In this document: positions 12,094 through 28,205 of the stretch, in pieces
How the letters are laid out: every line of letters begins with the position of its first letter
Position numbering within the stretch: the stretch's first letter is position 1
NCBI GenBank assembly: GCA_023412495.1
Contig: JAEYNP010000114.1
Span: forward strand, 1-64,000
DNA length: 64,000 bases
Source: Pseudomonadota bacterium
GTDB lineage: Bacteria; Desulfobacterota; Desulfobulbia; Desulfobulbales; Desulfocapsaceae
Reading direction: 5' to 3'
Program-made: the position numbers and the translations under genes
The notes under the pieces: generated by a model
What the model saw: only the letters and a program-made list of their open reading frames with translations
Told to the model about the DNA's origin: nothing
Database searches by the model: none

Positions 12094-15306
<3,213 letters not shown>

Positions 15307-15377
15307 AGGTCTGTCAGTGTGTCTTGTCGTTTTTAAGTTGTCCCGATCAGGGTGAGATTTTTGGCCAGATGGCTCGG

Positions 15378-16502
15378 CTATTTCTTGCGCATCATATCGA
15401 TGAAGCGGTCGAAGAGGTAGATCGCGTCATGGGGGCCGGGGGCGAATTCCGGATGATACTGCACGGAAAAGGCCGGGTATTTGGTATGCCGCATGCCTTC
15501 GAGGCTGTTGTCGTTCAAGTTGATATGGGTGATCTCCACGTCGCCGGGCGGAAGCGTTTTGATGTCGATACAGAAGCCGTGGTTCTGGGAGGTGATTTCC
15601 ACATGGCCGGTGGTCAGGTCCTTGACCGGCTGGTTCCCGCCGCGGTGGCCGAATTTTAGCTTGTAGGCCCGCCCGCCGTAGGCGAGGCCGAGGATCTGGT
15701 GGCCGAGGCAGATGCCGAAGATGGGCACGCGGCCGAGCAGGGCCCGCACCGTCTCCACCACGCCCTCGACGCCCTCCGGGTCGCCGGGGCCGTTGCTGAG
15801 GAAGACCCCGTCCGGGTTCATCGCCAGGACCTCGGCGGCGCTGGTCCCCGCCGGCACGACCTGGACCTGGCAGCCCTTCTCGGTCAAGAGGCGGAGCTGA
15901 TTGAATTTGATGCCGAAATCGAAAGCGACCACCCGCAGCGGATTGACCATTCCCGGCTGTGCGGTGCTGAAGTTGGTGCCCGGCACAGGACAGTTGTCGG
16001 CCCAGCCGTAGGGTTCCTTGCAGGTGATGTCCCGCACCAGATCCTGGCCGATGAAGCCCGGCCATTCATTTGCGCGTCTGACCAGAGACTCCCGGTCGAG
16101 ATCCAGAGTCGAGACGATGCCCTTCATCGCCCCTTTGGAGCGGATGTGCCGGACGAGGGCCCTGGTGTCGAAGCCTTCCACCCCGAGCACCCCGAATTTC
16201 TGGAGAAACTCGGCGAGCGACAGTCTGGAGCGATGGTTCGATGGGTAGGCGTTATATTCCTTGATGAGGAAGGCTCTGGGATAGATAGCCGCCGATTCCA
16301 TATCCTCGGGATTGATCCCGTAGTTGCCGATGAGCGGGTAGGTCATGGTCACGATCTGCCCGGTGTAGGATGGATCGGTGAGAACTTCCTGATATCCGCT
16401 GAGGGAGGTATTGAAGACAATCTCTCCGACCGCTTCACCTGGGCCGGTAAAGGATTGCCCCGCAAAGACAGTCCCATCTTCCAGAGCGATAAGTGCTTTC
16501 AT
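15378..16502 (-). CDS. carA: Carbamoyl-phosphate synthase small subunit
   Basis: Glutamine amidotransferase subunit, 374 aa, that hydrolyses glutamine and channels ammonia to CarB. The N-terminal CPSase domain starts [12 protein letters not shown]. The class I amidotransferase domain carries the nucleophile in [13 protein letters not shown] (about residue 262), with the His/Glu pair in [11 protein letters not shown] near the C-terminus. AGAGGAACACC precedes the ATG. It is followed by carB. A promoter candidate lies about 200 bases upstream, leaving a leader of roughly 190 nt whose function is not evident. Confidence 0.98.
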
Positions 16503-16698
16503 GGTGTTCCTCTATGTGCGACGATTTCGGTGCAGAGCGAAAAGTCTTTCGCGCCTTTGGAAAGGAGGGTCGTTCGTGCTCTTTCCGGTGTTGCTGCGAT
16601 TTCTGTCCATTGATAATGCGCTGCGGGGCCTGGCAGGGCATCCGGCGAGTGGAAGGGAAATTTTTTTGTCCCTCTTGAATCTGCAGACAAAACTGCAA

Positions 16699-16728
16699 TA
16701 TATAACCTGATAAGGCTGGCTACGTCAA
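16699..16728 (-). promoter_or_regulatory. Promoter of carAB
   Basis: Read on the minus strand, TTGACG (16728-16723) and TATATA (16704-16699) are separated by 18 bases, close to the sigma-70 consensus. Transcription would start near 16690, giving a leader of about 190 nt before carA. Confidence 0.6.
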
Positions 16729-16734
16729 CCGTAA

Positions 16735-16872
16735 TGCGGGCTGTCGCCCGCAACCCAAGGGTTGTGATCCCCTCCCACAGCAGAGGGGACTCTTTTCAGT
16801 ACCCCCTTGAGGGGTATTAGTACCTTAGGAAATCGTTTCTAAAAAACAAGAAACGATTTCCTAAGGTACTAA
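16735..16872 (+). repeat. Dispersed repeat family B, copy 1, with perfect 24-bp dyad
   Basis: Modules in order: hairpin GCGGGC-TGTC-GCCCGC; the conserved stretch ACCCAAG...ATCCCCTCCCAC.GCAGA; a small TACCCC/GGGGTA hairpin; then two perfect 24-base arms at 16817-16840 and 16849-16872 (TTAGTACCTTAGGAAATCG... and its exact complement) around an 8-base A-rich loop. A shorter copy in reverse orientation lies at 29134-29230. No open reading frame is inside. The dyad would form a very stable hairpin in RNA from either strand and could terminate transcription between the divergent genes. Confidence 0.85.
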
Positions 16873-17156
16873 TTCGGCTGGCAGGGGCCGCAGCGGGAAT
16901 TCCACGAGAATGTAATCATCAGCTAATTTCTTGCGGATTTTTTCCTGCGAATTTGTTAAAGATGTCGTTTCCTGCTCAGTAATCCTGATTGATTTGACAA
17001 GTAAAACTGATTAGCGTCATTGGACGCCGCAGGCAGTCGAACCGGTTTTGCCGGTTGGAAGAGGAATTGAAGGGTGCCGGGTTGCCCGGTTCCCTTTGTG
17101 GGGGGTAAGTAACGATTGAAGGAGGATCCGGTAGAACAACCGGATAAGGAGTTCCA

Positions 17157-18599
17157 TTGAAAAAGAGAATTCTAGTTGCAAACCGTGGCGAAATCGCCAT
17201 CCGCCTGATCAGGGCCATCCAGGAAATGGGATACGAGGCGATCGCCGTGTATGAAACTCCAGACGAGATGTCCCGGCACATCCGCATCGCCGATGAGGCC
17301 GTCCTGCTGGGGGATGGCCCGCGCAGCGACTATCTGAACATCGAGAAGGTCATCCGCGCCGCCAAACGGTCCGAAGCCTGCGCCATCCACCCGGGTTACG
17401 GCTTTCTCGCTGAAAATCCCTATTTCGCCAAGGCCTGCGAAAAGACCGACATCATCTTCATCGGCCCCACTTCGGACATCATCGCCAACCTCGGCAACAA
17501 GGTGGTGGCCCGAAAAATCATGGCGGAGGCGGGAATCCCCATGGTCCCCGGCACCTCCACCCTTAAACAGGGCAAGGAGGGCGTGGCCGAGGCGCTGGAG
17601 TTCGCCGCCCGTTACGGCTATCCGATTATGCTCAAAGCCACCTCCGGCGGCGGGGGACGGGGGATCCGGCGGATCGAATCGGATATCGAGATGAAAGAGC
17701 AGATCCCAATCGCCCGGGCCGAGGCGCTGGCCTCCTTCAACGACGACTCCGTATATCTCGAGAAGGTGATCGTCAACCCGAAACACGTCGAGGTCCAGAT
17801 CCTGGCCGACAGCCACGGCAACACGGTTCACCTCGGCACCCGCGACTGCTCGATCCAGCGGCGCAACCAGAAGCTCATCGAGATCGCCCCGTCGATGATC
17901 AAGGACAAGAAGCTGATCGACGAGATCTGCGAGACGGCGGTGCGCGCCGCCAGGGCCGCCAACTACTTGAACGCCGGGACGGTGGAGTTTTTGATCGATC
18001 AGGATATGAACTACTATTTCATGGAGATCAACACCCGGGTCCAGGTGGAGCACACCGTGACCGAGATGATCACCGGCATCGATATCGTCCGCAACCAGAT
18101 CAACATCGCCTTCGGCAAGCCGCTCTCATTCACCCAGGACGACGTGCAGATCCGCGGCCATGCCATCGAGGTGCGGATCAACGCCGAGGACCCGAAGAAC
18201 GACTTCATGCCGGAAGGCGGCAAGAAGGTCTCGGTCTACCGGTCCACCGGCGGTTTCGGGGTTCGCCTCGACGGTTTCGTCTACCAGGGCTATATCATCC
18301 CGGAAGTATATGACTCCCTGCTGGTCAAGCTGACGGTGCACGGCTTCACCTGGGACGAGACGGTCGGCCGCCTCAAGCGTTGCCTGCAGAACTTTGCCAT
18401 CAGGGGACCGAAGACGACCATCCCCTTCTATCTGAACATCGCCGATGAGAAGGATTTTCTGAGCGGCAATTTCGACACCTCCTACATCGAGACGCACCCG
18501 CATATCTTCCACTACGATGAGGATTCGAGCGAGGTCGGCAAGCTTTCGCGCTTCATCGCCCAACTCCAGTACCGCCGGGAGAACCCGTTCGCTAAATAA
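17157..18599 (+). CDS. Biotin carboxylase subunit of a two-subunit biotin carboxylase (pyruvate carboxylase A type)
   Basis: ATP-dependent carboxylation of biotin on the partner subunit. The 480-aa length suits stand-alone biotin carboxylases. Motifs: KRILVANRGEIAIRLIRA at the N-terminus, HPGYGFLAEN (about 78), the glycine-rich ATP-grasp loop KATSGGGGRGIR (about 160), EKVIVNPKHVEVQILAD, RDCSIQRRNQK, and FMEINTRVQVEHTVTE with the catalytic Glu/Asn/Arg/Gln set. The start is a TTG with AAGGAG five bases upstream. The carboxyltransferase/biotin subunit follows 55 bases downstream. The pairing resembles the PycA/PycB pyruvate carboxylase of archaea and many Desulfobacterota; by itself the chain could equally serve acetyl-CoA carboxylase, so the context decides. 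Confidence 0.93.
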   Translation: MKKRILVANRGEIAIRLIRAIQEMGYEAIAVYETPDEMSRHIRIADEAVLLGDGPRSDYLNIEKVIRAAKRSEACAIHPGYGFLAENPYFAKACEKTDIIFIGPTSDIIANLGNKVVARKIMAEAGIPMVPGTSTLKQGKEGVAEALEFAARYGYPIMLKATSGGGGRGIRRIESDIEMKEQIPIARAEALASFNDDSVYLEKVIVNPKHVEVQILADSHGNTVHLGTRDCSIQRRNQKLIEIAPSMIKDKKLIDEICETAVRAARAANYLNAGTVEFLIDQDMNYYFMEINTRVQVEHTVTEMITGIDIVRNQINIAFGKPLSFTQDDVQIRGHAIEVRINAEDPKNDFMPEGGKKVSVYRSTGGFGVRLDGFVYQGYIIPEVYDSLLVKLTVHGFTWDETVGRLKRCLQNFAIRGPKTTIPFYLNIADEKDFLSGNFDTSYIETHPHIFHYDEDSSEVGKLSRFIAQLQYRRENPFAK

Positions 18600-18654
18600 G
18601 ATTGACTGCCGCAACCATTCAAAATCTCTAGAACCTTCCGGAAAGGATTTGCAT

Positions 18655-20562
18655 ATGACGCGTATCATCCAGGGAACTCCCGTCAAGGACATTATCAACA
18701 CCCTGCGCTCGGCGAAAGGGTATTACATCACCAACACCGCTCGCGACCAGTCCCAGTCCGACTTCAAAAACCGGGTTTTGCTGCACACCGATCTCCTGGC
18801 CGCCGAAAATCGGGAAAAAGTCGGCTATTTTTCCCTCGAGATCACCGGCGGCGCCTCGATCCACGTGGACATCCTGCGCAAGCAGGTCGATCCTTTCCTC
18901 AAGCTGAAGAAGCTGCGGGAAGAGATGCCGCACACCATGTTCCAGACCCTCTGCCGGGGGGTGAATCTCTTCGGCTACCGCCCGTATCCCCAGAACATCA
19001 TTCGGTTCACGGTACGGGAATTCGCCAAGTATGTGGATGTGTGGCGGACCTTCGACTTCCTCAACCATGTACCGAACATGCTCGCGGTTTTCGAGGAGGT
19101 CGGCCGCGCGGGCAAGCTCAACGAGCCCTGCATCTGCTTTTCCACCGGCCCCGAGCATACCAATGAGTTCTATGTCGGCAAGGCTGAGGAAATCATCGCG
19201 ATAACGGGACAGGACATCACCCTCTGCATCAAGAACCACGGCGGACTCGGCACCCCCAAGAGGATCGGCGAACTGGTCGACGCCTTGAAGCAGCGCTTCC
19301 CCGACGTCCCCATCCACTACCACGGCCACAACACCGACGGCAACGATGTCGGCAGGATCGTCGAGGCGGTGCGCAGCGGGGCCACCATTGTCGATGCGGC
19401 CGATTCCGCCTTCAGCGGCTTTTATGGACCTCCGCCGGTGCTCACCGTGGTGCAGACCCTGAGGGAGTACGGCTACGAGCCGGTGGGGCTCGACGAGGAG
19501 GCGGTGATAGCCACCTCAGAGGTCATCCGCGACCAGCGGAAGTACTACGAGCAGTTCGAATCGCAGATCAAGGGCTTCCAGCCCACCGTCCAGATTCACA
19601 AGCTGCCGGGCGGGGCCATGGGCTCGAGCCTCGAGCAGGCGGCCAAGGGCGGCTTTCTCGACAAGATGCCGGACATCCTGCACAAGGAGCTGCCCCGGGT
19701 CCAGAAGGAACTGGGGAATTACTGGTCGGTGACACCCGGCTCGCAGATCCTCTGGACCACCGCGGTGGCTAACGTCCTGGGCGGCGAGCGCTACGGCAAC
19801 CCATCCGGCGACCTGCGTAACCTGCTGTTGGGAAAATACGGGCCCTTTCCCTTCTATCAGCCGGAGGAATGGATCTACCAGAAGGTGCTCGGCGACGACT
19901 GGCGCAGGGTGCTGGAAGAGGAGGGCGGTGCGGAGGCGATCCCCGACATGGATCTTGCCCATGAACGGTACGCCCTGTCCGAACTCATCGGCGGCGAGCC
20001 AACCGACGAACAGCTCGTCCTCTACCTTCAGCATCCGAACGATGCTGTGGAGTTTTTCAAGTTCACCGAAAAGTACGGCCAGGTCCATGTGCTGCCGCCG
20101 TCGATCTTTTTCCATCGCGGCGGCTTTGCCATCGGAGAAAAGCTGCCCTTCCGGGACCATTACGGCAAGCAGCACATGATCGAGATAGGTCCGACTACCA
20201 AAACAGACTCGGGCGAGACAACCATATACCTCAATATCGACCACCACCCGTCGATTTTCAATTTCAAAGAGAAGCCGGCGGGCCAGCAGCCGGGCGAGGC
20301 CCTGATTCTCAGCAAGGAGGAGATCCTCGATCTCGCCAAGGCGGGTGACGTCCGTTCGCCGTTTTCCGGCACCATAGTGGAAATTTCCGTGGAAGAAGGA
20401 CAGGAGGTCCTGGCCGGAGACCGGGTGGCGATCATGGAGGCCATGAAGATGCAGACTCCCATTCTCTCGGAAATGGACGGCATCGTCACCTCGGTCTTCG
20501 CCAAAAAGGGCGACAGCCTGAAACCCGGCGGCAAGATCCTGAAAATCGACAAGAACGAATAG
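18655..20562 (+). CDS. Carboxyltransferase/biotinyl subunit (pyruvate carboxylase B or OadA type)
   Basis: The 635-aa chain has a carboxyltransferase TIM barrel (about 1-300), a PYC_OADA domain (to about 470) and a C-terminal biotinyl domain with the acceptor Lys598 in EAMKMQTP. In the barrel, RDxxQS (RDQSQS, about residue 32), the lysine of LCIKN (about 195) and the HYH of the IHYHGHNTDGN strand match catalytic and metal-binding positions of the family. Two positions differ from the usual form: the residue after the lysine is Asn where Asp is typical, and the pattern after HYH reads GHNTDG rather than THDTSG. The adjacent biotin carboxylase makes an ATP-driven pyruvate carboxylase the best guess. 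A transcarboxylase 5S role, known in propionate-producing Desulfobulbus, cannot be excluded. Confidence 0.88.
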   Translation: MTRIIQGTPVKDIINTLRSAKGYYITNTARDQSQSDFKNRVLLHTDLLAAENREKVGYFSLEITGGASIHVDILRKQVDPFLKLKKLREEMPHTMFQTLCRGVNLFGYRPYPQNIIRFTVREFAKYVDVWRTFDFLNHVPNMLAVFEEVGRAGKLNEPCICFSTGPEHTNEFYVGKAEEIIAITGQDITLCIKNHGGLGTPKRIGELVDALKQRFPDVPIHYHGHNTDGNDVGRIVEAVRSGATIVDAADSAFSGFYGPPPVLTVVQTLREYGYEPVGLDEEAVIATSEVIRDQRKYYEQFESQIKGFQPTVQIHKLPGGAMGSSLEQAAKGGFLDKMPDILHKELPRVQKELGNYWSVTPGSQILWTTAVANVLGGERYGNPSGDLRNLLLGKYGPFPFYQPEEWIYQKVLGDDWRRVLEEEGGAEAIPDMDLAHERYALSELIGGEPTDEQLVLYLQHPNDAVEFFKFTEKYGQVHVLPPSIFFHRGGFAIGEKLPFRDHYGKQHMIEIGPTTKTDSGETTIYLNIDHHPSIFNFKEKPAGQQPGEALILSKEEILDLAKAGDVRSPFSGTIVEISVEEGQEVLAGDRVAIMEAMKMQTPILSEMDGIVTSVFAKKGDSLKPGGKILKIDKNE

Positions 20563-20576
20563 ACCCGCCTCATTGT

Positions 20577-20605
20577 CGCCGGAGGTTGAAGGTTCCCCTC
20601 CGGCG
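20577..20605. other. Stem-loop after the carboxylase operon
   Basis: CGCCGGAGG (20577-20585) pairs with CCTCCGGCG (20597-20605), 15 bases after the stop codon. No T-run follows, so it may protect the 3' end or assist Rho-dependent termination rather than act as an intrinsic terminator. Confidence 0.5.
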
Positions 20606-20626
20606 GCTCCGCCATCAGCGGCTGCC

Positions 20627-20782
20627 AGGAGGCTGTCGGATTATGGCAATTTTTCTACGGGTGGACAGGGTGGACCAAGTGGACTGAGTTGATCGCTTGG
20701 CAGCCGGTTGTCATGTCCACAATGTCCATCCTGTCCATCCGCTCTCGGATATTACAGAAAGTGCATAATCCGACAGTCTCCT
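20627..20782. mobile_element. MITE-like element, family C copy 1, with 21-22 bp terminal inverted repeats
   Basis: The left end AGGAGGCTGTCGGATTATGG (20627 on) and right end TGCATAATCCGACAGTCTCC (20762-20782) are near-perfect inverted copies. Inside lies a second, imperfect inverted pair built from GTGGACA/TGGACC units (20660-20685) and their complement (20713-20738). There is no reading frame of note. The right end overlaps the stop codon of the rhomboid gene (20781-20783). A degenerate copy lies at 31043-31124. The shape suits a non-autonomous miniature element; no matching transposase is in the window. Confidence 0.75.
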
Positions 20783-21629
20783 ACCTCAAAAACGCCGAGC
20801 TCAGGCCGTTTGCGCATGACCAGAGCAGGCTCAGCAGGGTGACGGCCACGCACAGCAAGGCCAAGACCTTGTGGTTGAAGTTCTCCTCCCTCCGTTCCCG
20901 GTAACCGAGGAGATAGGCGAGCAGCGCTCCGCAAAGCATCCCGCCGCCGTGGGCCCAGTTATTGATTCCCGGCACCAGAAAACCGAAAATGAAGATGCCC
21001 AGAGCCCAGCCCCCGATCTGGCCGAAGACCGCTTCCCCGTAAACCCCGCCGCGGCTCTTGCCGTAGTAGAGCAGGGCGCCGATCAGGCTGCAGATGGCGG
21101 CCGAGGCGCCGAGGGTAAAGGGAATGCCGGCGAGGGTGGAAACCACAAAACCTCCAACGCTTCCCAAGGTGTAGAGGACGATCGTTCTGTTCAGGCCGTA
21201 TTCCAGGATAACGAGAGGCGCGAGCTGCCGGAATGCGAGCATGTTGAAGAGGATGTGCAGCAGCCCGCCATGCAGGTAGCCGGCCGTTATCAACGACCAC
21301 CAGTGACCTCTATAGAAGAGGGGAATGACTCCCGTCGCCCCGAGCTCGATGAGGCTTCCGCTGCTGGGGGAAAGAAATGCCAGTGGGTTGAAACTGAGGT
21401 TGGCGGAGCGAAAACCCAGGGCGAGCGACAACAGGAACATGAAGACGTTCATGACGATCAGGGCGGTAACCAGCCGGTCGGAAGCGCCGGGACCGGAGAA
21501 GAGCAGGGTACTTTTCCATTTCGCCCCCGGTTTTTTCAAGCCGCAGTGGGGACAATTGGGGGCCGAACTGCTGACCAGTTTTCTACAGTTGGGGCAAAGC
21601 AGAGCCCTGGAGGTTTTGTTCGCCGACAT
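20781..21629 (-). CDS. Rhomboid-family intramembrane serine protease with zinc-ribbon N-terminus
   Basis: The 282-aa membrane protein begins with a small zinc ribbon (CPNC at 12-15, CPHC at 26-29) followed by about six to seven transmembrane segments. Rhomboid features: HGGLLHILFNM with H-x3-N (about 120-129), nucleophile Ser176 in GASAAI, and the base His227 in NNWAHGGG. Rhomboids cut transmembrane substrates within the membrane; the substrate here is unknown. The ATG at 21629 has AGGAG 5 bases upstream; an upstream in-frame ATG at 21686 lacks support. The stop codon is shared with the right end of a miniature element. Confidence 0.9.
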   Translation of the reverse strand: MSANKTSRALLCPNCRKLVSSSAPNCPHCGLKKPGAKWKSTLLFSGPGASDRLVTALIVMNVFMFLLSLALGFRSANLSFNPLAFLSPSSGSLIELGATGVIPLFYRGHWWSLITAGYLHGGLLHILFNMLAFRQLAPLVILEYGLNRTIVLYTLGSVGGFVVSTLAGIPFTLGASAAICSLIGALLYYGKSRGGVYGEAVFGQIGGWALGIFIFGFLVPGINNWAHGGGMLCGALLAYLLGYRERREENFNHKVLALLCVAVTLLSLLWSCANGLSSAFLR

Positions 21630-21775
21630 GCTTTCTCCTGTAAAATTGAAGCGAAGGCAGGATTGGGGAAAGTTCTTCGCTGACACTCTATTCTTTTACA
21701 CTCACTCTGTCGAGAAAACTCCTCCGGCGATGGTGAGTGAGGGGGAGAAGGAGGGTAACAGTCGGGGGAATTGCA

Positions 21776-22264
21776 TCAGGAATGATGGGATTCTTTTTTC
21801 GCCTGAGTTTTTTCCATACGTTCCTTCAGCCGGGCATTGCGCTCGGCAACTTCCGGATTACCCTCGTACCAGGGAGGGATATCGTCGTAATCGGGGATGC
21901 CGTCATCTATCATATAGCGGGAATTGGGGTTGTGCGGATAGCCGGAGGCCACTCCGCCGGCGCAGACCACCAGGAGCCCTTCCCCATGCGCCTTGAGGGC
22001 CCGCCGTGCCACGGGCGATACACGCACCGCATCTCCCTTGGTCAGCTCCAGCAGTTCGTCGTCGACCAGGATAAGGCCGCTGCCCTCCATGACCAGATAG
22101 ACTTCTTCCTGCTCACGATGGCGATGGGTGAAGGTATAGCCTTCATCGGGCGGCAGCTTGATCAGGCCGAGGGCGACACTCTGCAGTTCCAGTTGATGCC
22201 GGGGGCTGGTGAGCCAGGGAAGACTGTCGAAATCGAAATGACATTTGGTGTAGTTCATAGCCAC
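21776..22264 (-). CDS. Cupin-domain protein
   Basis: A small beta-barrel protein of 162 aa. Cupin motif 1 is visible as THRHREQEEVYLVMEGSG (about 46-64; His, His, Glu ligands) and motif 2 as KGDAVRVSP...RALKAHGEG (about 75-95). The C-terminal 50 residues are rich in charge and tyrosine/tryptophan and outside the fold. Cupins range from isomerases to dioxygenases and sugar-binding proteins; nothing here fixes the reaction. It is probably monocistronic, with 146 bases to the rhomboid gene and about 200 to the rhodanese gene. Confidence 0.85.
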   Translation of the reverse strand: MAMNYTKCHFDFDSLPWLTSPRHQLELQSVALGLIKLPPDEGYTFTHRHREQEEVYLVMEGSGLILVDDELLELTKGDAVRVSPVARRALKAHGEGLLVVCAGGVASGYPHNPNSRYMIDDGIPDYDDIPPWYEGNPEVAERNARLKERMEKTQAKKESHHS

Positions 22265-22409
22265 GTCCGGAGGTGGGGAGAAGAAAACCTATCCGTAAGG
22301 ATAAGCGAAAACCTTGCCGGAGTCAACGGACAGCGAAATATCGAAGAGAGGCGCTCAGACCATTTGCTGAACAACCGGATCGTATGAATGGACGTTTATC
22401 GGAGAGGTG

Positions 22410-22435
22410 GTGGGGGGGATTTTTTCACCCCCCAC
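22410..22435. other. Hairpin after the rhodanese selenoprotein gene
   Basis: GTGGGGGG (from 22410) pairs with CCCCCCAC (22428-22435) about 33 bases past the stop codon of the leftward rhodanese gene. On the transcribed strand no U-run follows, so it is a 3' stem-loop rather than a textbook terminator. Confidence 0.45.
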
Positions 22436-22467
22436 ATAATGGCGACCAGCATGCTCAGTTTATTCTA

Positions 22468-23811
22468 CTACCAGATTTCATATTCCCCAGAGGTTGAGCA
22501 CTCGCATTCGGCATTAAGGAATTTTACCGAGTAGCCCGCTTCTTTCAGCATCTTGTAGCCGATTTCCCCACGCCCGCCCGTTTTGCAGTGGACGACTATG
22601 AATTTGTCGATGGGAATTTCGGCCATACGGCTTTTCATCTGTTCCAGCGGGATGTTGATCGCATTGGGAAAATGGCCGGACTCATATTCCACCGGAGTGC
22701 GGGCGTCGACAATAAAGATCAGATCGGACTGCAGCGACTTGGTGAAATCGGAGACGCTGATTTCTCCGGGACCGAGCTTCTTCTGCCACTTGATGGGGTT
22801 GTCCTCGGTAGCGACGGGGATGGACCCGCTTTGCAGCTGCTTCTCGGCCTTTGTCCAGATAGCCAGGGCATTGTGAAAGCCGGTGACATTCTTGTATCCC
22901 CAATCCGTCAAAATTGTCTTGGCCGCAGCTATATCGGCGTCCTTGTCGGAATAGAGGTAGATCGGCGCACCCTTGCCTTTCGGAAAGGCCTCCTCGGCAT
23001 CCTCCATCTCGTTCAAGGGGATGGAATAGGCCCGGGGAATGTATCCTTTCTCGGCCACGGCTTTGTCCCGCAGATCGATCAGGACGATATTGCCTTCGGC
23101 TATATAATCGATTGCGGGGGCAAGGTGTTTGCCGGCCTTTTTCCAGGCGGGAAGCCCGTCGACATAGACCAGCGGATTCTTGTGCCCCCATTTTTTCGCC
23201 AGACCGGCGGATTTGGGACTCATCGTTCAGGTGGAGCCGCCGCAGTAGAAGACGAGCTGTCTGTCCTGATACGGGGCCAGCAGCTTGGCCCCTTCCTCGC
23301 CCGCGGCCATGAGCTTGGCAAGAGGGATGGAAATCGCGCCGGGGATATGGCCCTCGTCGTACTTCGGCGCAGGGCGGGAGTCAACGATGATCGCCTTGCC
23401 TTCTCCTACAAGTTTGGCCAATGCTTCCGTTTTAATTTCCTCGACTCCTTCCGGCAACTTGATCAAATCCTTCTCGATCGAGGTGGCGATATTTTCACCT
23501 CCTGTCACTGTATATTTGGCGATTATGGCCTCGTCCTCCTTGAAGTCCGTCGCTTCTCCGCTGAAGGTGGTGGCATCTGTGAATTTCAGCAGGAAAAACT
23601 GACCATCGGCGGTGGCCAGGGCGATCGATTTGGCCTTCTGGGAGATATTGGAGATTTTTCCTTGGATAGTAGTCGTTTCCGCGGCTGCGGTGGTCTTTGC
23701 CGGCTCCGCTGCCAGAGCCGGCTTTGTGCCGGCTGGCAATGTCTCGCCCGGAATCCAAGCATTGGCGGCCAGCAGGGCGGCAAGACCGATTTTCAGGATT
23801 GTTTTTTTCAT
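22468..23811 (-). CDS. Probable selenoprotein: exported triple-rhodanese protein with in-frame UGA (Sec195)
   Basis: Read through one in-frame TGA (23229-23227), the frame encodes 447 aa. Order: signal peptide (KKTILKIGLAALLAANAW...), a small beta-rich domain (about 40-110), then three rhodanese domains. Domain 1 (about 110-230) spans the TGA: FYCGG-S-T-[UGA] then TMSPKSAGLAKKWG, so the fold is complete only if UGA is translated. Cys190 is the usual rhodanese position and Sec195 would be five residues on. Domain 2 lacks the cysteine (LYSDKDAD). Domain 3 has Cys409 in VVHCKTGGRGE. A bacterial SECIS-like hairpin lies 21 nt after UGA. GGAGGT precedes the ATG at 23811. Rhodanese-like sulfurtransferases are known among bacterial selenoproteins. 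A nonsense mutation splitting the gene is the alternative. Confidence 0.85.
23187..23217 (-). promoter_or_regulatory. SECIS-like hairpin directing UGA readthrough
   Basis: On the minus strand, 21 nt after the in-frame UGA, CGCC (23209-23206) pairs with GGCG (23200-23197) around the apical loop GGUCU. An outer CCCA/UGGG pairing (23217-23214 with 23190-23187) extends the stem across an A-rich internal loop. The GGUCU loop is the one found in the E. coli fdhF SECIS, where the G and U bind SelB. Position, loop and stem all fit a bacterial Sec insertion element. Confidence 0.75.
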
Positions 23812-24049
23812 GGATGACCTCCATTTTCGATTTTTCGGTGCCCAAACCAGACCCTTCAACCGGTGCAGGGACCTGTCTGAAGTGGTGAATATTCCACTAT
23901 AATGCAGCCTGCAGCGGTGATTCCGGGCAAGGTAAGATAAAGTAATTAATAATTTAATTATATTATTCTGGGGTGAAAATCAAGGGATTTGTCAACCGGG
24001 CAAAGAAAAGGGCGGAAAACCGACTGGGGAGGGAGGATGAATGGCAAGA

Positions 24050-24068
24050 GGGCGGAGAAATTCCGCCC
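24050..24068. other. Stem-loop downstream of the Rossmann-like gene
   Basis: GGGCGGA (24050-24056) pairs with TCCGCCC (24062-24068), just past the stop of the leftward gene at 24086. No clear U-run follows on the transcribed strand. Confidence 0.4.
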
Positions 24069-24085
24069 CCCAGCGATTGGAGACT

Positions 24086-24637
24086 TTACTTTTTCTCGCC
24101 AAACGAGACCTCGAATAGCTTTTCGATGGCCTCGCGTCCGGCATCGCTCAGGTAGCGGGTGCCGCTGCCGACGAAGGTGTCGTATTCGATGCGGGGAGAA
24201 TCCTCCTGCCAGCCGTTTTTCCAGGTGAACCACTTTTTCTGCGGCTGGTCGAATACATGCAGGGGACGATTGAACATCTTGGCGAGTTCCACCGCCCAGC
24301 CGGTACCGCCCTTCACCGAATTGTCCTCTTGGATGGTGCCGATGACAAAGACCTGATGGCCGCTGTTGACCATGTGGAAGATAGTCTGCAGGACTTTTCT
24401 GATCTTGTCCGTTTCATAATAGGTGCGGTTCAGCATGCGGGAGGCCAGTTCCATGCTGATATCACCCCGTTCGAGCTGCTCCTTGCCGAGAATGACCACA
24501 TTCTTGTCGCGGGTGAGCTTGTGGCCCTCGAAGGAGTAGACCACCTCCTTGACGCCCAGCTTTTCCGCGGTTTCACCGAAATATGCTTCGGCACCTTTGA
24601 GACCGCTGCTGAAAAGGGTGTAATCGGATAATTTCAT
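24086..24637 (-). CDS. Conserved-looking soluble protein, possible SLOG/Rossmann-like nucleotide-binding fold
   Basis: The 183-aa product has no signal peptide or membrane segment. The central stretch GHQVFVIGTIQEDNSVKGGTGWAVELAKMFNRPLHVFDQ alternates strand and helix with a glycine-rich KGGTGW turn. This is reminiscent of SLOG-superfamily proteins (YpsA, DprA-like) that bind nucleotides. It is followed by WFTW and FVGSGTRYLSDAGREAIE. The start at 24637 has GAGGAG eight bases upstream. It is isolated between the rhodanese selenoprotein and cmoB, with gaps on both sides. I do not recognise a named family and offer the fold only as a guess. Confidence 0.7.
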   Translation of the reverse strand: MKLSDYTLFSSGLKGAEAYFGETAEKLGVKEVVYSFEGHKLTRDKNVVILGKEQLERGDISMELASRMLNRTYYETDKIRKVLQTIFHMVNSGHQVFVIGTIQEDNSVKGGTGWAVELAKMFNRPLHVFDQPQKKWFTWKNGWQEDSPRIEYDTFVGSGTRYLSDAGREAIEKLFEVSFGEKK

Positions 24638-24746
24638 CGAATGACTCCTCATAAGAAAAACGATAGTTTAACATGGAAAATTTGCTTAAGTGTAATCCCA
24701 GTGATGCGGAAAGGCAATATCTCACAATTTTTTTGCCGCGATTGAA

Positions 24747-25709
24747 TCAGGCCTTCTTCTCCGCCCTGGCAAATATACGCCAGGGCGCCGGGTATCCTTC
24801 CACGGTCTGGGTCGGATCGTCTCCGTCAATATAATCGGCAAAGGATTCGAAGGTCATCCACGGGGTCTGACGCTGTTCCGAAGATGACATGGGATGGCTG
24901 CAGAAGAGATCGATGCCGACGTAGCCAGCCTTCTTCAGCCAGTTGGACAGGCATGCTCCGGTCGGCACGAAGTAGGTGCCGGGCACCTTGGCGTAGGTCT
25001 CGTCGGGAAAGAGGGCAACCGGCTGATCGCCGGGAATGGCCTGCGATTCGAGTATGAGGCTTCCGCCCGGTTTCAAGGCCGTGAGGATGTCCCGCAAAGT
25101 GTCGATGGGAGATGGGCGGTGGTAGATGACCCCCATCAGGAAGATCACATCGAAGCATTCCCGGAACAAAGGGAGGTGTTCGACGCCCAGAAGATCGACG
25201 TGCAGGAAAGGGTTTCGGGCCATCCCGTTCAGCGCCTGGAAACAGTAGTAGTGCTGTACGGAGGGTTCGAAACCCAGGACCAGCCGCGGGCGGGCGGCCG
25301 ACATGCGGAACATGTAGTAACCGTTGTTGCAGCCGATATCGGCGACGACCTTGCCGGCCAGGTCGGGGAGCGTCGGGAGGAGCCGCTGCCACTTCCGCTC
25401 GCTGCGCCACTCTGCGTCGATGTCGATGCCGAACACGGAGAAAGGTCCTTTGCGCCAGGGCATGAAGGCCCTGAGCTGTTCTTCGATCCTCAGGCGATCG
25501 TGGTCATCCACTTCGTCCGCCCGGCCGATGATCACCGTGTCCTTTGAGCAGTCGACATGGACCGCATTATACCGGGCCAGTTCCAAGGCCGGCCGGCGGT
25601 AGCGCAGGAAGCCCTTTTTGTCCTGATTGACCCAGGCCTGGAGTTTGCGGTGGGCAATGGCGATCGCGGTCGAATCCGCCGAGGCGGGAAGATGATCGAG
25701 ATAATGCAT
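24747..25709 (-). CDS. cmoB: tRNA U34 carboxymethyltransferase
   Basis: Transfers the carboxymethyl group of carboxy-SAM to 5-hydroxyuridine at tRNA position 34, giving cmo5U. The 320-aa length fits CmoB. The SAM motif is VADIGCNNGYYMFRM (about 123-137); FMPWRKGPF...WRSERKW before it and LMGVIYHRPSPIDTL (about 215) after it are characteristic. It follows cmoA by 9 bases, as in gammaproteobacteria where the pair was defined. The modification widens wobble decoding of four-codon boxes. Confidence 0.95.
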   Translation of the reverse strand: MHYLDHLPASADSTAIAIAHRKLQAWVNQDKKGFLRYRRPALELARYNAVHVDCSKDTVIIGRADEVDDHDRLRIEEQLRAFMPWRKGPFSVFGIDIDAEWRSERKWQRLLPTLPDLAGKVVADIGCNNGYYMFRMSAARPRLVLGFEPSVQHYYCFQALNGMARNPFLHVDLLGVEHLPLFRECFDVIFLMGVIYHRPSPIDTLRDILTALKPGGSLILESQAIPGDQPVALFPDETYAKVPGTYFVPTGACLSNWLKKAGYVGIDLFCSHPMSSSEQRQTPWMTFESFADYIDGDDPTQTVEGYPAPWRIFARAEKKA

Positions 25710-25718
25710 GACAGTGAA

Positions 25719-26456
25719 TCAGGATGGTTTTACCGCGACAAAAGAGGCGAAGTTGAACCAGCGGAAGTAGGTTTCGACCGGCGTGAAACCCGTGGTGCTC
25801 AGCATGGCGAGATTTTCCGCCACCGAGAACGGGATGAGGACATTTTCCAGGGCCTCGCGCTTCTTGGCGATTTCGAGCTCCGAGTATCCCCGCGCTATTT
25901 TGAAGCGATGGTAGATGTCGATGTAGTCCCGGTTGAGCCGGGGATCGTGGTTGATCACCTTTTCACTGACCAGGAGGATTCCGCCCGGCCTCAGGTTGTC
26001 GAAAACATTCTTGAGAAACGGTTCCCTCTGCAGGGGCCGGATAAACTGGAGGGTGTAGTTGAGAATCACTCCTCCGGCCCCCGGATGGTTGAAGGTGGTA
26101 ATGTCCTCGAAGGAAAAGGATGTCCGGTCCTGCTTGCGGTACAATTCCGCCTTGAGCCGGGCCTTGTCGAGCATTGCCTGCGAATTGTCGATACCAACGA
26201 AGGATAAATTTATATGCTGCAGCAGTCGGCTGAATTCGAGAAGGCTGGTGCCGTTGGCGCAGCCCAGATCGTAGACGGTATCGCCCGGGATCAGGAATTT
26301 GTCGAGCAGCCGCGCGGACGCCTCGATCACCTCCCGGTAGAAGGGGATGGATCGATCGAGCATGTCGTCGAAAACCTCGACCACCCGCTCATTGAAAACA
26401 AAGTCTTCGGGAATCGAATCGACCTGGAAGAGGGTATCTCTTTGGGCGTCGGTCAT
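25719..26456 (-). CDS. cmoA: Carboxy-S-adenosyl-L-methionine synthase
   Basis: Converts SAM and prephenate to carboxy-SAM, the donor used by CmoB. 245 aa. Characteristic stretches: FNERVVEVFDDMLDRSIPFYREV at the N-terminus, SAM motif VYDLGCANGTSL (about 61), GVILNYTLQFIRP (about 128), and SEKVINHDPRLN (about 163). It is the third gene of a tight leftward set: lipoprotein, ydbL-like, cmoA, cmoB. Confidence 0.95.
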   Translation of the reverse strand: MTDAQRDTLFQVDSIPEDFVFNERVVEVFDDMLDRSIPFYREVIEASARLLDKFLIPGDTVYDLGCANGTSLLEFSRLLQHINLSFVGIDNSQAMLDKARLKAELYRKQDRTSFSFEDITTFNHPGAGGVILNYTLQFIRPLQREPFLKNVFDNLRPGGILLVSEKVINHDPRLNRDYIDIYHRFKIARGYSELEIAKKREALENVLIPFSVAENLAMLSTTGFTPVETYFRWFNFASFVAVKPS

Positions 26457-26460
26457 TGTC

Positions 26461-26835
26461 TTATTTCCGATACCAGGTGTTGTCGGCTTTCTGCAGCCAT
26501 TGGCCGCTTGTCCCGTTTCCGGCGATCATTTCAGCCCGAATTTTTCCGACCAGGACGGTGTCCACTCCCTGACTCTTGCCGATGGCCTCGTATACCGCCA
26601 GGCGATCCCGGTTTTCTGCGTTCACCAGTGGCCGGTGTGTTTCGTCCGCGACCAGTAACTCCAGAAAACCCAGGTTATCTTCACCTGCCAGTCCGCTGTC
26701 CTTAAGGGCCTTGACTTCATGGCTGCGGGCTGCCATGTCGTCTCTGATTGATGCCGAATGGACGGTGGAGACAATGAACAAGGTGCAAGCAATAAACACA
26801 TACAGAAACGACATGAAAAAGATGTTTTTCGGCAT
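26461..26835 (-). CDS. YdbL-like (DUF1318) periplasmic protein
   Basis: A 124-aa exported protein with a signal peptide (IFFMSFLYVFIACTLFIVSTVHSA). The mature part shows the YdbL pattern: MAARSHEVKALKDSGLAGEDNLGFLEL, then a Val/Asn-rich stretch ending in ENRDRLAVYEAIGKSQG. AAGGAGTACC precedes the ATG. The cmoA gene starts 4 bases after its stop. In E. coli, ydbL sits beside ynbE (a small lipoprotein) and ydbH (an AsmA-like intermembrane protein) and YdbL is thought to modulate that system. Here a 63-aa lipoprotein lies 22 bases upstream, in the ynbE position, but no ydbH is in the window. Confidence 0.85.
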   Translation of the reverse strand: MPKNIFFMSFLYVFIACTLFIVSTVHSASIRDDMAARSHEVKALKDSGLAGEDNLGFLELLVADETHRPLVNAENRDRLAVYEAIGKSQGVDTVLVGKIRAEMIAGNGTSGQWLQKADNTWYRK

Positions 26836-26857
26836 GGTACTCCTTGTGAGGAATTTA

Positions 26858-27049
26858 CTATTCTTTCTGGGAATCTATGTCATCGAAGAAATCATGCAGG
26901 ACTGCCTCGACCTTCGCCCTGGTGCCGTCGGCGGAGTGAGCCTGTTCTCCGGAGAGTTGGCTGATATTTTGGTTATGGTTGTTACAAGCGGCGAGAGTCA
27001 GGAAAACGAAAACCGTGCAGGCGCCGGAAACAAGTCTTTGAGTCTGCAT
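26858..27049 (-). CDS. Small lipoprotein in the ynbE position, family not recognised
   Basis: The 63-aa product has a basic start, a hydrophobic stretch (ACTVFVFLTLAAC) and a lipobox LAAC with Cys at residue 22. The 41-residue mature part is Asn/His/Gln-rich at first, then helical and acidic (AKVEAVLHDFFDDIDSQKE). An ATG four codons upstream (27061) is also possible. It lies 22 bases before the YdbL-like gene. By size, lipidation and position it could be the local equivalent of E. coli YnbE, but sequence resemblance is weak. Confidence 0.6.
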   Translation of the reverse strand: MQTQRLVSGACTVFVFLTLAACNNHNQNISQLSGEQAHSADGTRAKVEAVLHDFFDDIDSQKE

Positions 27050-27061
27050 GTTGAGCCACAT

Positions 27062-27379
27062 TTTGTCAGGTGCCGGACTACATGGGATTACGCGTACTTC
27101 CGCGACCAGGTTGGGGGTGCAAGGTGAATATACCACTCTTGCAGGACCTGGAAAATAGAAAATTCCGGTCTTTGTGGCAGGAAGGTGCCATTTTGGGCGA
27201 TCCGCACGATCCAGCGGTCCGGCAAACCAAGGGAGGCGGGCCGGGCATGAAAAAATTGGCCTTGCCTTGCGCAGCGACTGCCAGTATAAACGTATGCCCA
27301 GAGACTTGGCCCTCATAGGGTGGAATTTATCGATCGGAGTTTTCGCCTTCGGTCGGAGAAGATAAAGAAACGGGTTCTT
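27062..27379. other. Divergent intergenic region with one promoter candidate
   Basis: This gap separates the leftward lipoprotein/ydbL/cmoAB unit from the rightward biotinyl-like gene. Apart from the promoter candidate at 27262-27290 I see no repeat, RNA gene or convincing reading frame. Confidence 0.5.
27262..27290 (+). promoter_or_regulatory. Candidate promoter of the biotinyl-like gene
   Basis: TTGCCT (27262-27267) and TATAAA (27285-27290) are spaced by 17 bases. The start codon of the biotinyl-like gene is 90 bases downstream of the -10. Confidence 0.5.
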
Positions 27380-28036
27380 ATGGCTAACGAAATAGATTTC
27401 GACGAGTTGTTGAGCAAATATAAATCGGATCCCTACGATTACGTGGATGTCCTGGCGGTTCACACCGGGCGGGTGTTGTTCAAGGTAGTCGAAGGTCAGG
27501 AGGTGTCGGTGGCCGCCGGCGAGTGGCTGCAGATCCCCGGTACGACTCTTTACGAGATCGACCGTGAGCGTAATCTGAAGGCGATTCCCGCGCAGACCAA
27601 TGGAATCGTCGACCAGATCAATAGTGAGTTGGACGGGCAGTTTGTCGAGGCCGGGGAGAAGCTCATGACGATCAAACACCCTCTCAAAAAGAAGGAGATC
27701 ATCGAGAACATCCTGAAAGAGGTGCTGTCCCTCTTCCACGCCCCGGAAACGGCCAAGTATTTTTTCGCCCTTGATATCCAGTCACGCATCGACAAAAAAA
27801 GCGCCAGGGAGGTCACCATCGATCCCGGCGATGAGATCCTGACCATGTCCCTCATGAAGCGGGATACGCCTATCTATTACAAGGGAGAGCGGGGCGTGAT
27901 CCACTCCGTTTACTTTAAGCCCGGGGTCTCGGTCGAGCAGGGAGCTCCGCTGATCGGCGTTTGCGCTCCGGAGAAACTGCCCCTGATCCAGAAGATCATC
28001 ACCCGCGTCAAGGCGGACTGGGACAGCGAACATTGA
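27380..28036 (+). CDS. Divergent biotinyl/lipoyl-domain protein
   Basis: The 218-aa soluble protein has two hammerhead-like segments. The first (about 20-105) contains VLAVHTGRVLFKVVEGQEV and IPAQTNGIVDQINSELDGQFVEAGEKLMTI. The second (about 150-198) reads EILTMSLMKRDTPIYYKGER then GVIHSVYFKPGVSVEQGAPLIGV, which aligns with biotinyl domains (E-A-M-K-M-E-T-P...G-V-V...G-x-x-V-x-x-G-x-x-L). The acceptor lysine position is kept but its surround is L-M-K-R instead of A-M-K-M. It is followed by a biotin-ligase-like gene, which suggests a substrate/ligase pair. Whether this lysine is modified, and with what, is not shown by sequence. A family A repeat begins within its stop codon. Confidence 0.75.
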   Translation: MANEIDFDELLSKYKSDPYDYVDVLAVHTGRVLFKVVEGQEVSVAAGEWLQIPGTTLYEIDRERNLKAIPAQTNGIVDQINSELDGQFVEAGEKLMTIKHPLKKKEIIENILKEVLSLFHAPETAKYFFALDIQSRIDKKSAREVTIDPGDEILTMSLMKRDTPIYYKGERGVIHSVYFKPGVSVEQGAPLIGVCAPEKLPLIQKIITRVKADWDSEH

Positions 28037-28193
28037 TGGACTTGTAAAAAGTCCGCTCTACTTCGTTGTAGGTCTGAAACGGCGCTTCGCTGTACCATAT
28101 GTACTACCAGAGCGCAGTTTCAGGCACTACCTCGTATATCGAACTTTTTCCAGAGTCCATCTCCACGGTTGGAGCACTTTTTACGGCTTTATC
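28035..28193. repeat. Dispersed repeat family A, copy 2 (full length)
   Basis: A 159-base element. The outer arms GATGGACTTGTAAAAAGTCC (28035-28054) and GGAGCACTTTTTACGGCTTT (from 28171) form an imperfect terminal inverted repeat around GTAAAAAGT/ACTTTTTAC. Inside, a second dyad pairs TCTGAAACGGCGCT with AGCGCAGTTTCAGG. It begins in the stop codon of the biotinyl-like gene and ends 13 bases before the ligase start, so it fills the space between two co-oriented genes. Confidence 0.9.
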
Positions 28194-28205
28194 TCCCAGG
28201 AAACT

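Follow-up and report, generated by a model that had tools for sequence, protein, structure and literature searches.

On the reverse strand of the window, by which we mean the whole analyzed stretch of 64,000 nucleotides, a long reading frame for a rhodanese-like protein is interrupted by an in-frame TGA. The locus raises the question of whether this codon ends a gene, reflects damage to one or is read as selenocysteine (Sec), as the original prediction had proposed. Our comparisons of homologous sequences indicate that the UGA at codon 195 is almost certainly read as Sec by means of SelB and a bSECIS, giving one exported protein of 447 residues. The best explanation of the locus as a whole, to which we assign a probability of about 0.85, is a Sec-containing exported triple rhodanese with Cys190 and Sec195 in one loop, probably as a redox pair. 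The features of the locus are, in window coordinates:

22468–23811, reverse strand: complete coding sequence of 447 residues with the TGA as Sec, stop codon included (open-frame reading; relatives homologous over the full length, with one TGA)
23818–23822, reverse strand: Shine–Dalgarno-like GGAGG, 6 nt 5′ of the ATG at 23811 (sequence reading)
23707–23811, reverse strand: predicted export signal, residues 1–35, with a Lys-rich start, a hydrophobic run and ALA-A (read by eye)
23470–23673, reverse strand: small beta-barrel domain, residues 47–114 (AF2 model)
23116–23457, reverse strand: rhodanese domain 1, residues 119–232, with the loop C190-G-G-S-T-U195 (Pfam, AF2 model and structure matches)
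23242–23244, reverse strand: Cys190, position 0 of the domain 1 active-site loop (invariant, 118/118 genes)
23227–23229, reverse strand: TGA codon, Sec195, loop position +5 (TGA 90, TGC 20, TGT 8; n = 118)
23197–23209, reverse strand: bSECIS hairpin CGCC-GGTCT-GGCG (four pairs, each formed in 90/90 TGA genes)
22822–23112, reverse strand: rhodanese domain 2, residues 234–330, with a Cys-less loop, an inactive copy (sequence, AF2 model and homologue columns)
22471–22770, reverse strand: rhodanese domain 3, residues 348–447, with the loop C409-K-T-G-G-R414 (C409 and R414 invariant, 118/118 genes)
22498–22506, reverse strand: C-terminal Cys436-Glu-Cys438 pair (column counts in 118 genes)

The TGA is the sole in-frame stop interrupting the 447-residue frame, and its context in the protein is FYCGGST-U-TMSPKSAGLA. 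The Pfam Rhodanese profile (PF00581) matched three stretches with 147 bits against a gathering score of 22.2, and the best of these, residues 129–226, spans the TGA; the claim that a single TGA lies inside the active-site loop of domain 1 within a continuous frame is thereby borne out. In the AF2 model (mean pLDDT 87.4, pTM 0.77), residues 1–40 have low pLDDT and the barrel consists of strands 47–57, 62–66, 72–76, 95–103 and 106–114. As we picture it, the mature protein would combine this small beta-barrel with three rhodanese domains, of which domain 1 would carry the C-x-x-x-x-U loop, domain 2 would be inactive and domain 3 would be a sulfurtransferase. An antisense open frame of 409 codons on the plus strand (window 22588–23817) overlies almost the entire gene; pieces similar to it were found in at least 10 loci, mostly at 34–61% identity. 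The frame probably exists only as a by-product of coding on the other strand.

To place codon 195 in its evolutionary context, we collected homologous genes with a search that reads through stops. In the order to which the nearest relative (G001) belongs, 240 of 257 genomes matched at E ≤ 0.001, many of them weakly, and the matches listed had one TGA or no stop, the exception being genome G102, which had one TAG as well as one TGA. When genomes were drawn evenly from the phylum, 41 of 395 matched at E ≤ 1e-20; of the 46 rows, 30 had one TGA and 16 none. The best-scoring places of the order and phylum searches, together with further listed ones, gave 139 matches, which were reduced to 118 distinct genes by removing identical sites and assigned to column 195 by profile and alignment. 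Left out before mapping were L001 (identical to gene L011), L002 (a partial sequence from Spirochaetia) and L003–L010 (tRNA loci). In the gene with the extra TAG (L129, G102:C236:1558-2772), that codon lies 105 codons upstream of the TGA, in the barrel domain, and may be due to error, decay or another cause.

Column 195 held TGA in 90 genes, TGC in 20, TGT in 8 and no other codon. As one batch was picked for lacking TGA and the genes were chosen nonrandomly, the 90:28 split is no natural Sec:Cys ratio. The expectation that homologues would have Cys or Sec at residue 195 was thus realized in all 118 genes. In none of the 90 Sec genes was there a second in-frame TGA from 150 residues upstream to 240 residues downstream of the site, and the protein is conserved on both sides of the TGA at about 30–75% identity. 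The residues D144, R146, C190 and C409 are invariant across the 118 genes. Genome G128 carries two TGA-form genes of the triple-rhodanese family. L146, L147 and L148 are paralogous second TGA copies in genomes that have the first copy as well (G127, G155 and G130); the hairpin loop of these three second copies is CGGCG, not GGTCT.

The same columns inform on the individual domains. Cys is absent from the columns of residues 284–296 in 118/118 genes and Cys409 is present in all; judged from these sequences, domain 2 is an inactive rhodanese copy and domain 3 an ordinary sulfurtransferase domain; the original prediction of a dead domain 2 and of a catalytic Cys kept in domain 3 agrees with these counts. 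By rough patterns, an export-like N terminus (Lys and a hydrophobic run) was found in 99/118 genes and a lipobox-like motif in 37/118. The C-terminal pair is less regular, with Cys at column 436 in 12 and at column 438 in 65 of the 118 genes and CC or CxC anywhere past residue 428 in 53.

A bSECIS is a stem–loop shortly 3′ of the UGA with a G within the first two loop positions. The hairpin reported with the loop GGUCU, 21 nt past the TGA, is present at that distance, and its stem begins 17 nt past the TGA. Taken singly, it is unremarkable: a 50-nt piece folded with z = –0.57 and 52 of 200 shuffles were at least as stable, which is not significant, and for two longer pieces 187/200 and 189/200 shuffles folded at least as well. 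The reality of the hairpin rests, therefore, on its conservation. Numbering the T of TGA as 1, the pairs 21–33, 22–32, 23–31 and 24–30 are each formed in 90/90 TGA genes, with compensating types at 21–33 (C–G 81, G–C 5, T–G 2, T–A 2) and at 24–30 (C–G 88, A–T 2). Both of these pairs fall on third codon positions, and among the Cys genes they are formed in just 13/28 and 15/28, respectively. The full stem is present in 90/90 TGA genes vs. 7/28 Cys genes (Fisher P about 1e-17, uncorrected for kinship), and the stem together with loop G26 in 90/90 vs. 2/28 (likewise uncorrected). The loop is GGTCT in 62 of the 90 TGA genes and GGTCA, AGGTT, CGGCG or others in the rest; with the loop sequence varying and the stem constant, the element is kept by its structure.

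Sister pairs gave the same picture: among the six listed, the full stem was found in all six Sec members and in one of the six Cys members (L020). The Cys genes L053 and L123 have retained GCCGGTC and lost only the closing pair, which suggests that they hold bSECIS relics from recent Sec-to-Cys changes. On the tree of the 118 proteins, built by a quick method and with some long branches unsure, we counted 14 Sec/Cys changes, at least 10 of them forced by supported branches, against a mean of 25.3 after shuffling. One side of the midpoint root has 16 rows, every one of them Sec, and the window gene clusters with L011 (G001) and L012 (G142).

We then considered how such genes appear in protein databases. 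Of 185 matches in a protein search, 120 were listed, and 113 of these, including the window's own entry, were pieces of 249–252 residues covering what follows the TGA; all 14 of the short entries that were aligned begin with M-S-P. The 7 full-length relatives among the 120 all have Cys at 195. The Sec codon resembles a stop, so that entries often contain the back half alone, and an ATG two codons past the TGA, present in 72/90 TGA genes, accounts for the false start. Gene calling had been predicted to break the gene, and it does so here, although truncation is not universal: with a distant query, 113 of the 120 matches listed covered only about 60% of the query, whereas with a third, more distant one about half of the 120 listed covered most of it. 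A pair of half-genes in G241 (pieces 25–248 and 206–435) was considered as two real genes and rejected, the pieces being cut by contig ends. Among the 118 mapped genes, we found no halves as separate genes, and the two-gene relatives that could have spoken against a single protein did not turn up.

These observations weigh unequally on the readings of the codon. A nonsense mutation, a pseudogene or a sequencing error has in its favor the in-frame TGA and nothing more. The TGA is common to 90 distinct genes, which excludes the sequencing error raised in the original prediction, no further in-frame TGA occurs nearby and the protein is conserved on both sides; the comparison refutes this explanation and leaves it a negligible probability. 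A true stop would produce an exported fragment of 194 residues and a second protein started by translational coupling at the ATG two codons on. The frequency of that ATG among the TGA genes and the presence of the second piece in databases agree with such an arrangement, but 18 of the 90 TGA genes lack the ATG and 28 homologous genes carry TGC or TGT in the column. The second piece, moreover, begins inside a rhodanese domain, as had been noted from the single sequence, and has no signal peptide, and the hairpin pairs at third codon positions are kept only alongside TGA. We consider a true stop very improbable.

Decoding of the codon as Sec further agrees with the machinery of related genomes. 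Of the 257 genomes of the order, 214 have SelB and 211 have SelA over the cut-off, compared with 2/14 and 1/14 control genomes, respectively. Among the matches listed, 115 genomes of the order have the TGA form; SelB was missing from 18 of them, SelA from 18 and both from 2 (G137 and G156), some of the 115 being fragmentary, so that 113 have SelA or SelB. Of the other 118 genomes of the order, 13 have neither. The number of SelB-less genomes is 43 or 44, as G181, which is not a Sec genome, is probably over the cut-off. All 24 genomes with only the Cys form among the matches listed have both SelA and SelB, and the Cys forms are thus unexplained by a loss of Sec decoding. In the eight genomes searched for tRNA-Sec, the match was clear in G128, G137, G142 and G155 (69.9–75.9 bits), partial and at a contig end in G001 (49.2 bits) and below the 47-bit cut-off in G154, G156 and G157; scores near the cut-off say little because 5 of the 14 control genomes also pass. 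The proposed Sec reading is strongly supported by the TGA/Cys column, the covariation in the hairpin and the presence of SelA or SelB in related genomes with the TGA form.

The gene neighborhood points to no redox partner. In the nearest relatives, the gene is surrounded by conserved but unrelated housekeeping genes, and no partner gene common to all 22 sequences was found among the matches listed. In the window, the syntenic region (12094–28200) includes genes for the carbamoyl phosphate synthase small chain, pyruvate carboxylase-like proteins, a rhomboid protease, two methyltransferases and a cupin protein. Elsewhere, a histidine kinase and sigma-54 response regulator pair lies upstream of the Sec rhodanese gene (L077:19-3723), with similar kinase and regulator genes in L076, L079 and L083 of one branch, and a rhodanese–rubrerythrin fusion is found near another Sec rhodanese gene (L081:2048-2878).

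What the protein may do can be approached through its loop. In rhodaneses, the first loop Cys holds a persulfide and is encircled by the loop backbone, and a second chalcogen at +5 is therefore well placed for attack. Such an attack is supported by two known loops, discussed below, in which both positions are Sec (TsoB) or both are Cys (BH2092). The most likely mechanism, to which we give an even chance, is a sulfane-sulfur cycle between Cys190 and Sec195. In the periplasm, Cys190 would accept sulfane sulfur from a putative donor, for example polysulfide or thiosulfate; Sec195, which lies five residues further along the domain 1 loop, would attack, releasing sulfide and forming a Cys190–Sec195 selenenylsulfide, which a putative periplasmic reductant or thiol system would reopen. 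Domain 3, through Cys409, may donate or receive sulfane sulfur. Sec would speed the exchange relative to Cys, and lineages do swap the two. In its wider form, we offer the idea tentatively and at odds clearly worse than even: a distinct selenoprotein family for which NCBIfam has no model may be spread across Desulfobacterota, its members being exported triple rhodaneses that form the selenenylsulfide within one loop and in which the rhodanese fold has become a redox-cycling sulfane-sulfur reductase instead of a sulfur transferase.

The main competitor accepts the insertion of Sec and questions the cycle. The protein might be an ordinary sulfurtransferase in which Sec195 tunes the loop, it might serve as a persulfide relay linking domains 1 and 3 or might scavenge oxidants or metal(loid)s instead of reducing sulfane sulfur. 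Domain 3 is indeed a standard rhodanese and the Cys and Sec forms interchange, and, in the available part of PMC5877670, the rhodanese-like ExtH belongs to a gene cluster linked to the reduction of selenite and tellurite. On the other hand, Cys or Sec at +5 in 118/118 genes is beyond what tuning needs, and in TsoB, by NCBI's description, both loop positions are linked to a DsbD part. We regard this group of explanations as a real contender with somewhat less than an even chance. If a Sec-containing protein with the Cys190–Sec195 redox loop is confirmed, many entries wrongly truncate a sulfur-handling protein that sulfate-reducing bacteria and their relatives commonly export, and surveys of predicted proteins can miss its export signal, most of rhodanese domain 1 and the selenium. 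The many natural exchanges of Sec and Cys, in part between close relatives and with traces of a bSECIS left behind, provide a test bed for the benefit of selenium and for selenoprotein loss.

Rhodanese-domain selenoproteins are already a known kind, and the window protein probably belongs among them. In their available parts, two reviews (PMC9312934 and PMC13188914, the latter from 2026) count Sec-containing rhodaneses as predicted families, and PMC13188914 lists five rhodanese selenoprotein forms, one with U-x-x-S. The description of the gene as unannotated is, therefore, correct for the window gene and for the NCBIfam models, while the idea of a rhodanese selenoprotein was already listed. 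The U-x-x-S protein, form 1 (WP_010941598.1; PF00581, one Sec), is credited in the available part of that review to Zhang and Gladyshev 2005. It shares with the window protein PF00581, a single Sec and U-x-x-S (UTMS in the window), a comparison by motif, and the two may be one and the same family. Our third protein search named Trichlorobacter lovleyi and Desulfuromonadaceae and no Geobacter sulfurreducens relative among the 120 matches listed. As far as the available text goes, sulfurtransferase or rhodanese selenoproteins are also listed in surveys covering marine metagenomes and Deltaproteobacteria from marine sediments, and one survey from 2016 includes in its count a "sulfurtransferase homologous to a rhodanese-like protein." The deep-Sep paper gives 43 known selenoproteins for Desulfosediminicola flagellatus IMCC35005 (genome of 6,751,878 bases), and the available main text mentions no rhodanese. 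We found no description of a Sec-containing triple rhodanese in the results listed by our literature searches or in the available parts of PMC13188914, PMC9312934, PMC1088965, PMC2398784, PMC8318568, PMC5877670, PMC1794560, PMC12013277 and PMC5029168, and an earlier description is possible; the same holds for the window protein's architecture together with its redox loop, form 1 having been compared by motif.

Several named proteins are nevertheless close in one respect or another. The window protein reached the cut-off of no model in NCBIfam release 20. With rhodanese_LYCAU (NF041203; form 3 of the review, CxU), it has in common a rhodanese domain with Sec near Cys; the known protein differs in its CxU motif and its model of 126 positions, and the window protein scored 44.6 bits against a cut-off of 115. 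EanB and YnjE have three rhodanese domains each, and both matched the window model in Foldseek over about 400 alignment columns, at identities of 16–19% and 13–14%, respectively. The overall rmsd of about 17 means that their domains are arranged differently from those of the window protein. The structure entries of EanB name a persulfide on Cys412. The structure rows from VIA-align cover residues 106–444 and barely test the barrel fold (47–114). ExtH (NF040901), the rhodanese of a Geobacter selenite/tellurite operon, is of similar size (49.0 kDa; available part of PMC5877670), and at E ≤ 0.1 the window protein had no match to its model (cut-off 200 bits).

The closest comparison is with TsoB (NF045694), the NCBIfam model that domain 1 matches best, with 61.2 bits confined to that domain and a model cut-off of 805. 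The loops of the two proteins, VFY-U-AGLT-U-VRS in TsoB and VFY-C-GGST-U-TMS in the window, both have Sec at +5, whereas TsoB has Sec at both loop positions and is described by NCBI as a rhodanese/DsbD fusion. Sec occupied both positions (U-A-G-L-T-U and similar) in all four TsoB loci examined. Of 58 genomes of the order, 5 have a TsoB over the cut-off; the protein occurs in the window's nearest relative G001 as L149 (G001:C13:32043-33761), and L150–L152 are further loci. BH2092 (3nhv, 3o3w), whose solved chain matches domain 1, has the loop C-W-G-P-A-C with Cys at both positions. The comparison with TsoB renders a specific redox role of loop position +5 directly testable and, if the reading of the window protein is true, completes a natural loop series of CxxxxC, CxxxxU and UxxxxU in one fold.
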